Positions 8,698 through 10,193 of a DNA stretch of 34,816 nucleotides are shown piece after piece (within the stretch, counting starts at the first letter, position 1; every line of letters starts with the position of its first letter). The notes below the pieces were generated by a model, which was not told the DNA's origin, made no database searches, and saw only the letters and a program-made list of their open reading frames with translations. Where the stretch lies: IMG/VR virus record IMGVR_UViG_3300033141_001276, positions 1 to 34,816 of that record; one strand, 5' to 3'. Position numbers and translations under genes: made by a program. This DNA comes from a virus.

Positions 8698-8812
8698 CGT
8701 GAGGAGTCGTATTCTTGGTCGTAAAGAGAGGATTTTTATATAATGGCAAATAGGCCCGCAAGGTCAAAACGGCTGGCTCCTCACACGCTGCTATCCTTTC
8801 GCCTTGCGGGCC
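8698..8812 (+). ncRNA. Structured leader RNA of the replication operon (pseudoknot-capable)
   Basis: Two interleaved inverted repeats follow the predicted transcription start. GTGAGGAG (8699-8706) pairs with CTCCTCAC (8777-8784). GGCCCGCAAGG (8753-8763) pairs perfectly with CCTTGCGGGCC (8802-8812). Because the order is A-B-A'-B', the two stems form a pseudoknot or alternate with each other. The second stem ends 12 bases before the SD of the 8834 gene. There is no U-run, so simple termination is unlikely. It may be a translational or transcriptional control element for the initiator protein, or a separate small RNA. Confidence 0.5.
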
Positions 8813-8833
8813 TTCTGCATTATGGGAGCGTTT

Positions 8834-9688
8834 ATGAAAACATGGGTTAAGCTCTACACGGAAATCAATCGCGATCCCACACTGGGCGAATTAACGTGGG
8901 CACAACGTGGTATATGGGGGGCATTGCTGGCGCTGGCTGGTGAAATTGACGCCCGCGATGAGGAGGGTAACGAGAATGGAGAGCTTGATACTATCGAACG
9001 GGTGGCATGGCGGATTCGGTGCGATGTTATCGACTTGCAGGAGGCTATCACGGCATTTGAGGAGCGCGGCATGGTCGATGGGAGCGGCGACGTCCTATAT
9101 TTGTGTAATTATGCAAGATGCCAGGCTCGCGCGCCCTCCGCATCACGCCGAGCCGTTGCGGAGAGAGTACAACGACACCGTGCCCAAGACGCGCGAGAGT
9201 GTAGCGAGGATGTAACGAGATGTAACGAGGGTGTAACGAGGGTGAAACGAGGCGTAACGCCCTCAGATACAGATCCAGATACAGATACAAACTCAGATAC
9301 AGATTCAGATATAGGCGCTAAAGCGCAGCCCTCCGATCCTCCCCCCGATCCTCCCCCCAAAAAGAAGCCCAAATCACGAGCAGACCCGCGCACAAAATCT
9401 ACGCCTATTCAGGCCATTAGGGCCGTAATTGGGGGGCGTCGCTATCCCCCGCGCGAGCTATACGATACGATCATATCTGTGGTAGGCAATCATCCCGATA
9501 TGGCCCTCTTAAAGGCGTGCCGAGCCGAATGGATAACGCGCGGGTACAACCCCAACTCATGGAAGTGGCTAACCGAGTGGTATTCTAGTGGGCGAATACC
9601 GCCACAAGCACAAGGCAAATCGCAATCCGTTCTGGCGCAAACTCAAGCCGCCCTTGACGCATACCAGAAAAGGATAGACGGTGGCTAA
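8834..9688 (+). CDS. Replisome organizer / replication initiator (DnaD-like)
   Basis: 284 residues from ATG 8834, with GGGAG 5 bases upstream; ATG 8822 and TTG 8804 are earlier options, but the latter overlaps the leader stem. The N-terminal about 100 residues match phage replisome-organizer winged-helix domains (WVKLYTEINRDPTLGELTWAQRGIWGALLALAGEID). A low-complexity linker follows at about 125-185, with DT/DS repeats and PPPDPPPKKK. The C-terminal domain ends with ITRGYNPNSWKWLTEWY, similar to DnaD/replisome-organizer tails. It should bind the phage origin and recruit the helicase loader. The linker DNA carries iteron-like repeats (9201-9260), so the origin may lie inside this gene. Confidence 0.75.
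   Translation: MKTWVKLYTEINRDPTLGELTWAQRGIWGALLALAGEIDARDEEGNENGELDTIERVAWRIRCDVIDLQEAITAFEERGMVDGSGDVLYLCNYARCQARAPSASRRAVAERVQRHRAQDARECSEDVTRCNEGVTRVKRGVTPSDTDPDTDTNSDTDSDIGAKAQPSDPPPDPPPKKKPKSRADPRTKSTPIQAIRAVIGGRRYPPRELYDTIISVVGNHPDMALLKACRAEWITRGYNPNSWKWLTEWYSSGRIPPQAQGKSQSVLAQTQAALDAYQKRIDGG
9201..9260 (+). repeat. Six iteron-like GTAACGAGG direct repeats, candidate origin
   Basis: Units begin at 9201 (GTAGCGAGG), 9212 (GTAACGAGA), 9222 (GTAACGAGG), 9233 (GTAACGAGG), 9244 (GAAACGAGG) and 9254 (GTAACGCCC). Spacings are 11, 10, 11, 11 and 10 bases, about one DNA turn. They are not multiples of three, so the repeat falls in changing codon frames and must be conserved at the DNA level. 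This resembles the iterons inside lambda gene O. Confidence 0.7.
9264..9311 (+). repeat. Eight 6-bp CAGATA-type repeats next to the iterons
   Basis: CAGATA or close variants at 9264, 9270, 9276, 9282, 9288 (CAAACT), 9294, 9300 and 9306. They encode an (S/T/P/N)-D linker. They are A/T-richer than the flanks and lie 3 bases after the iterons, so they may be the unwinding element of an origin. A protein-level linker repeat is the alternative, since 6 is a multiple of 3. CCGATCCTCCCC is then repeated twice in the following Pro-rich part. Confidence 0.6.
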
Positions 9689-10193
9689 CAAGAACACGCT
9701 TAAGCAAATGTTCATTTTGCTAAGGGCCAATTGGCCGCGATATGCTTTCTCAGAGCACACGGTGATTGTCTATGAGAAATGTCTGGCCGATATACCGGAC
9801 GATGTATTAGCGGCGGCGACTCTGGATTGCATTGGGCGGTGCACATACTGGCCGAAAGTAGCAGAGATGCGCGACGCGTGTTACCGGATTATGAACAATG
9901 CGCTAGACCAACCAACGGCGCACGAGGCATGGGCCGAGGCGATACGCGCGATGGGGGCACATGACAGACACCTTCAGCCACTGACAGAGCGGACAATAAA
10001 ATGCCTGGGGGGTATGTCTGCAATAGGCCGTAGTCAAGAGACAGAGTTGGGCAATTGGCGAGCACGGTTTATCAAAACGTATGAGGCGCTAGAATCACGA
10101 GACAGGGCGCGGGCCATGACCTTGCCTATGGTGCGCCAGATCACAGAGCAAATCGAATCAGCTAAGCTGCTGGAGGGGAAAAGTGAATCATAG
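9681..10193 (+). CDS. Helicase-loader-like protein (G39P type)
   Basis: 170 residues from GTG 9681, overlapping the initiator gene by 8 bases. The N-terminal about 70 residues match the G39P-like helicase loader pattern: small helical bundle with FILLRANWPRYAFSEHTVIVYEKCLADIPDDVLAAATLDCIGRCTYWPKVAEMRDA. In SPP1, G39P binds helicase G40P and delivers it to the origin protein G38P. No helicase gene is present here, so the host DnaB is the likely client. The C-terminal half is helical and Arg/Glu-rich. Gene order initiator-loader is the same as in SPP1-like modules. Confidence 0.7.
   Translation: MANKNTLKQMFILLRANWPRYAFSEHTVIVYEKCLADIPDDVLAAATLDCIGRCTYWPKVAEMRDACYRIMNNALDQPTAHEAWAEAIRAMGAHDRHLQPLTERTIKCLGGMSAIGRSQETELGNWRARFIKTYEALESRDRARAMTLPMVRQITEQIESAKLLEGKSES

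Follow-up and report, generated by a model that had tools for sequence, protein, structure and literature searches.

Iteron-like repeats inside a phage initiator gene: a very probable in-gene replication origin and a possible rule relating a basic helix to its iterons

The replisome organizers of Tuc2009 and TP901-1 bind repeats located inside their own genes, and these repeats act as origins (PMC8965321). Indeed, the record of Tuc2009 Rep (orf16) carries the note 'contains origin of replication', and the sequence of the gene contains CAACCA units about 11 bp apart, directly followed by a GGATA repeat tract. In SPP1, gp38 binds the direct repeats of oriL inside gene 38, with an AT-rich unwinding element (PMC6316719). 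The Rep boxes of the plasmid pSK41, four in number, lie centrally in rep, and the part of the protein encoded by the origin is a dispensable linker (PMC5703833). The iterons of lambda O, 18 bp long and spaced by 20-24 bp, are also found inside the initiator gene.

The stretch of DNA analysed here (the window) comprises a complete IMG/VR virus record, 34,816 bases long. Its initiator gene (8834..9688; all features given below are on the + strand) contains an array of six GTAACG-type units at 9201..9259, which start at 9201 (GTAGCG), 9212, 9222 and 9233 (GTAACG), 9244 (GAAACG) and 9254 (GTAACG). The spacings are therefore 11, 10, 11, 11 and 10 bp, about one helical turn, and the units fall in codon phases 1, 0, 1, 0, 2 and 0, so that all three phases are used. 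Recomputing the positions gave the same six units and spacings as the original prediction, which had been made from the letters alone. The array is the sole site in the 34.8 kb where an identical hexamer occurs three times at 10/11 bp spacing, a pattern found on average 0.01 times (at most once) in 100 Markov shuffles of the window; Tandem Repeats Finder reports a period of 11 at 9200-9252. When the protein was held fixed, a chain as good as that observed arose in one of 2000 synonymous versions drawn from phage codon usage and in none of 2000 in which the gene's own codons were permuted. The plain number of GTAACG-like units was matched more often (16 and 8 of 2000, respectively), which means that the peptide itself explains part of the signal.

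As in Tuc2009, units about 11 bp apart and an adjoining repeat tract lie inside the initiator gene, but the iteron and the tract differ in sequence; the TP901-1 Rep gene is without any GTAAC. With SPP1, whose internal origin in gene 38 had been cited as a precedent, the window shares a replisome organizer with direct repeats in its own gene, binding being inferred in the window. It differs in that no second, oriR-like array was seen elsewhere in the window. The parallel with lambda O, also drawn at the outset, holds for the location of the iterons inside the gene and fails for unit length and spacing, making lambda a looser analogue than Tuc2009.

The array is followed by a tract of period 6 (CAGATA; 9264..9311), recognized by Tandem Repeats Finder and by its low stability, and proposed as the unwinding element. 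These 48 nt stand at the 98th percentile of instability within the gene, and the 40-bp segment of lowest stability in the gene starts 21 nt past the start of the last iteron. The stability of the tract is below that of all 300 synonymous versions built from the codons that the gene uses elsewhere; its instability exceeds what its protein sequence requires. In each of the 56 genes whose array could be classified, the tract has a lower stability than the remainder of the gene, and in 98% of them it also falls below the synonymous mean. A weak case is the relative L002, which has kept the iterons and has an AGCAGA-like tract at the 58th percentile only, not clearly unstable. The CAGATA tract first noticed after the array is thus where the gene is least stable, and that it melts is an inference.

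The initiator, P0001, is a protein of 284 aa. Its matches in PHROGs are weak ('DnaD-like helicase loader', 8e-5 and 1.5e-4; 'replisome organizer', 0.007), and its score with Pfam PF09681 (Phage_rep_org_N), 13.4 bits, is below the curated cut-off of 23.3. No match to Pfam RepA_N was obtained at E 0.1, nor did the whole initiator match anything in a phage protein database. A distant relative, L490, gives a good match to TIGR01714. The assignment to DnaD/replisome-organizer-like proteins is supported, weakly as far as sequence is concerned. AlphaFold2 predicts a confident N-domain (residues 1-102, 8834..9139, blocks mostly at pLDDT 81-96) and a helix at residues 105-123 (9146..9202; RRAVAERVQRHR...), which is basic and is the proposed iteron reader; residues 138-168, which cover the part encoded by the tract, are of low confidence and probably disordered. 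The model of a distant relative, L565, has the same domain order, with one helix at 106-130. Residues 1-96 of P0001 align with the RepA_N plasmid initiator domain 5kbj (Z 8.9), and the N-domain with the ORC2 winged helix (Z 9.6). Values of about 9 support a winged-helix fold for the modelled domain, not a function. The resemblance to pSK41 is accordingly one of fold, together with repeats inside the initiator gene, in a system that differs in being a plasmid with four Rep boxes.

The next gene (9681..10193, 170 aa) is of unknown function: it matches phrog_9804 (unknown function) at 2.9e-19, and its match to Pfam DUF6475 is below cut-off. It had been called a G39P-like loader, a label that needs correction as far as sequence goes, no G39P match having been found in Pfam, PHROGs, PDB sequences or NCBIfam; a helicase-loader role is a guess from position alone. 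Directly 5' of the initiator gene, at 8752-8813, lies an inverted repeat whose two 17-nt arms are 88% complementary and separated by 28 nt.

The original prediction held that the spacings, not being multiples of three, place the repeat in changing codon phases, so that selection acts on the DNA, and that an alignment of homologous initiator genes would tell whether the repeats outlast protein divergence. A search with the N-domain alone yielded L485, L486 (on the same contig as L003), L487, L488 and L489 (on the same contig as L002), all 59-62% identical to P0001 over that domain. GTAACG is found in almost the same register in five of these six initiators, the window included. The units of L002 match the register of the window exactly (11, 10, 11, 11, 10), the last two being GAAACG; L003 and L488 retain only some of the slots, and in L485 one slot is shifted by one base. 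In L487, the GTAACG array is replaced by TGTCACAA units at 0, 11 and 32, translated as CHK in one codon phase and as VTS or VTT in another. The whole array is now TGTCACAA, which was interpreted as a concerted change of the DNA unit at constant spacing. Selection on the DNA is thus supported: the register of the DNA repeat outlasts changes of codons and residues. In part of the array, L485, L488 and L003 show a dyad, GTAACG-N-CGTTAC, that is, at least one inverted unit. The C-terminal domain of the window's initiator recurs in L004 (4482-5300) and L005 (66% over residues 183-278), joined there to another N-domain. The GTAACG array is absent and GATAAAGATGTA repeats take its place; L004 also shares the next gene (78% identical). 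The pattern, as read from these sequences, is that of a larger module swap.

A sample of 80 loci chosen without regard to repeats, with N-domains of another branch, provided 70 distinct linkers. Of these 70 distant initiators, 44 have chains of three or more units at 10/11 bp, against 3.7 expected from synonymous permutation; chains at 11/12 bp occurred in 32 and at 12/13 bp in nine, other spacings being unremarkable. About a third of these relatives have no three-unit chain by the detector used, and some of them carry other repeats. Arrays at one helical turn are a feature of this family of initiators. The unit is here GTAACG, GTCACG or GTGACG, mostly one kind per gene.

The type of basic helix encoded directly before the array corresponds to the iteron base in 55 of 56 genes: R[VQ]xx[HYRC][RK] goes with GTAACG (34 genes), RKQxQR with GTCACG (13) and R[TN]xxYR with GTGACG (8), the single exception being L487. 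These helix patterns were written after the data had been seen, so that the correspondence describes and does not test. A tree built from just the winged-helix part is poorly resolved; on it, the class of iteron switches no fewer than 17 times, and sign tests on supported independent pairs are borderline, with 6:0 (p 0.03) for one class and 5:0 (p 0.06) for a second. When the rule was applied to 16 annotated phage genes fetched afterwards, some of them from phages close to members of the first sample, it made a call in 11; the predicted base was that of the commonest unit in ten of these, and the eleventh has no array. Other helices accompany other repeats (GGACATGTCC, GGACNGTCC, TCTACTGTAGA) in the relatives L518, L528, L525, L558 and L501, suggesting further putative helix-iteron classes. 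No description of the helix-iteron rule was found in the open-access literature, most subscription journals being outside the search.

The winged-helix parts of L499 and L501 are identical, and the two genes are 84-100% identical before and after nt 315-450. Over that interval, identity drops to 46-66%, and both the helix and the array differ. L559 and L565 show the same local divergence in a milder form. Helix and array are thus swapped as one cassette between otherwise near-identical genes, and the proposed reader helix seems to evolve together with its sites as an exchangeable unit; this offers a simple test of how replicons may change compatibility without loss of function.

We incline to the view that these observations reflect a recognition code that holds generally for the in-gene origins of phages. 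A short basic helix following the winged helix would read the adjacent iteron, and helix and iterons would form a mobile cassette of roughly 130 bp. The code would be R[VQ]xx[HY]R for GTAACG, RKQxQR for GTCACG, R[TN]xxYR for GTGACG and xAxxRW for GCAATG. The role of the helix as reader is likely on balance and has not been shown, being inferred from covariation and swaps. Were the code true, the origin specificity of uncultured phages could be read from sequence, and phage origins and their specificity predicted directly. The main rival, which bears on the helix-iteron rule only, is linkage without recognition: the covariation would come from neighbourhood and joint recombination, the winged helix being the real reader. 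Helix and array are within tens of bp of each other, and in pSK41 it is the N-terminal domain (residues 1-120) that binds the Rep boxes (PMC5703833). Against this, L499 and L501 have the same winged-helix part with different helices and arrays, and the same helix residues recur with the same iteron across very different N-domains. R[VQ]xx[HYFLRC][RK] lies upstream in 70 of 78 distinct GTAACG linkers (viral and genome matches listed) and xAxxRW in none; among the matches listed for GCAATG arrays, xAxxRW is found in 63 of 76 linkers and R[VQ]xx[HYFLRC][RK] in three. Linkage remains a possibility that we regard as appreciable, though doubtful.

The unique array, the constraint on the DNA, the arrays of the family and the Tuc2009 layout make it very probable that the window holds an in-gene iteron origin, one that belongs to a known kind; the helix-iteron rule is the unexpected part. 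Four features of a Tuc2009-type origin are present: in-gene direct repeats, helical-turn spacing, a tract of low stability and, in the predicted structure, a winged-helix N-domain. We thus hold with considerable confidence that 9201-9311 is the replication origin of the phage, embedded in its own initiator gene, an inference made without binding or replication data. The origin of an uncultured phage would thereby be placed to about 120 bp. The original proposal of a candidate in-gene origin under selection on the DNA withstood all the tests that could be applied and gains support from the register in homologues and the family-wide arrays as well as from the Tuc2009 layout, binding and origin activity being inferred. 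Several observations were counted against an origin: the weak sequence match of the N-domain to known families, the relatives without a three-unit chain, the tract of L002 and the lack of a GC-skew switch. GC skew is positive almost throughout the window, with no switch near the array, and for this reason is uninformative as an origin mark and as the refuting check proposed at the outset. In the proposed mechanism, the basic helix encoded directly upstream (RVxRHR) would read GTAACG, and the initiator would bind the row of six short iterons, whose spacing of one helical turn would align the bound monomers on one face of the DNA. The adjoining CAGATA tract would open next, and the helicase would be loaded there. 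Translated, the iterons would form a flexible linker that joins the winged-helix N-domain to the helical domain at the C-terminus, and their coding cost would therefore be small.

Initiators often bind their own gene, and binding alone would suffice to explain both the iterons and the covariation. The repeats could thus be initiator-binding sites that serve mainly autoregulation or copy control and not the start of replication. We consider this unlikely, since the array lies some 370 bp into the gene and not at a promoter, and almost every relative has a destabilised tract beside it. Moreover, in Tuc2009, SPP1 and pSK41 an origin with this layout has been proven (PMC8965321, PMC6316719, PMC5703833).

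The variable base of the unit in the distant relatives is a silent valine third base in one codon phase and sets N, H or D in another. In 60 of 77 cases, which are not phylogenetically independent, the valine wobble base agrees with the N/H/D residue that the unit next to it specifies; shuffling gives a mean of 26 and a maximum of 42 in 20,000 permutations. In the other parts of these genes, the valine codons are free of this bias. The notion that the repeats are a mere by-product of a low-complexity linker (VT, CNE, DTDT) with biased codons can hardly be sustained: about half of the GTAACG-like units do arise from the peptide alone, but the spacings are not multiples of three, the chain is rarely reached by synonymous shuffles, the linker residues go from N to H to D along with the DNA repeat, and the wobble bases track the iteron base, by which selection on the protein only is already contradicted.

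When viral contigs were scanned for GTAACG occurring three times at 10/11 bp, with no protein criterion, at least 98 ORFs of at least 120 aa were obtained, and 57 of those listed match the PHROG 'DnaD-like helicase loader'. From such DNA-pattern scans, tandem hexamers one helical turn apart seem often to mark phage origins embedded in initiators. The totals of the different scans are not comparable, since they count matches listed. Prophages with such arrays have hosts that include, as named in the records, Firmicutes, Bacteroidales, Desulfosarcina and Melainabacteria. Two controls had to be rejected: the reversed hexamer GCAATG, itself an iteron family in initiators, and a scan at 12/13-bp spacing, which mixes tail-fibre repeats with other initiators. 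GCAATG at 11 bp constitutes a second iteron family in other phage initiators (L248-L366; NANAMRTQCDGNA linkers). GTAACG triplets at 11 bp also occur in Paludibacteraceae and Cloacimonadota contigs (L368, L371, L374, L401, L433 and similar), mostly with no clear gene over them. In L134, L135, L142, L147 and others, GTAACG is repeated in codon phase at 12 bp spacing within replication-initiator linkers.
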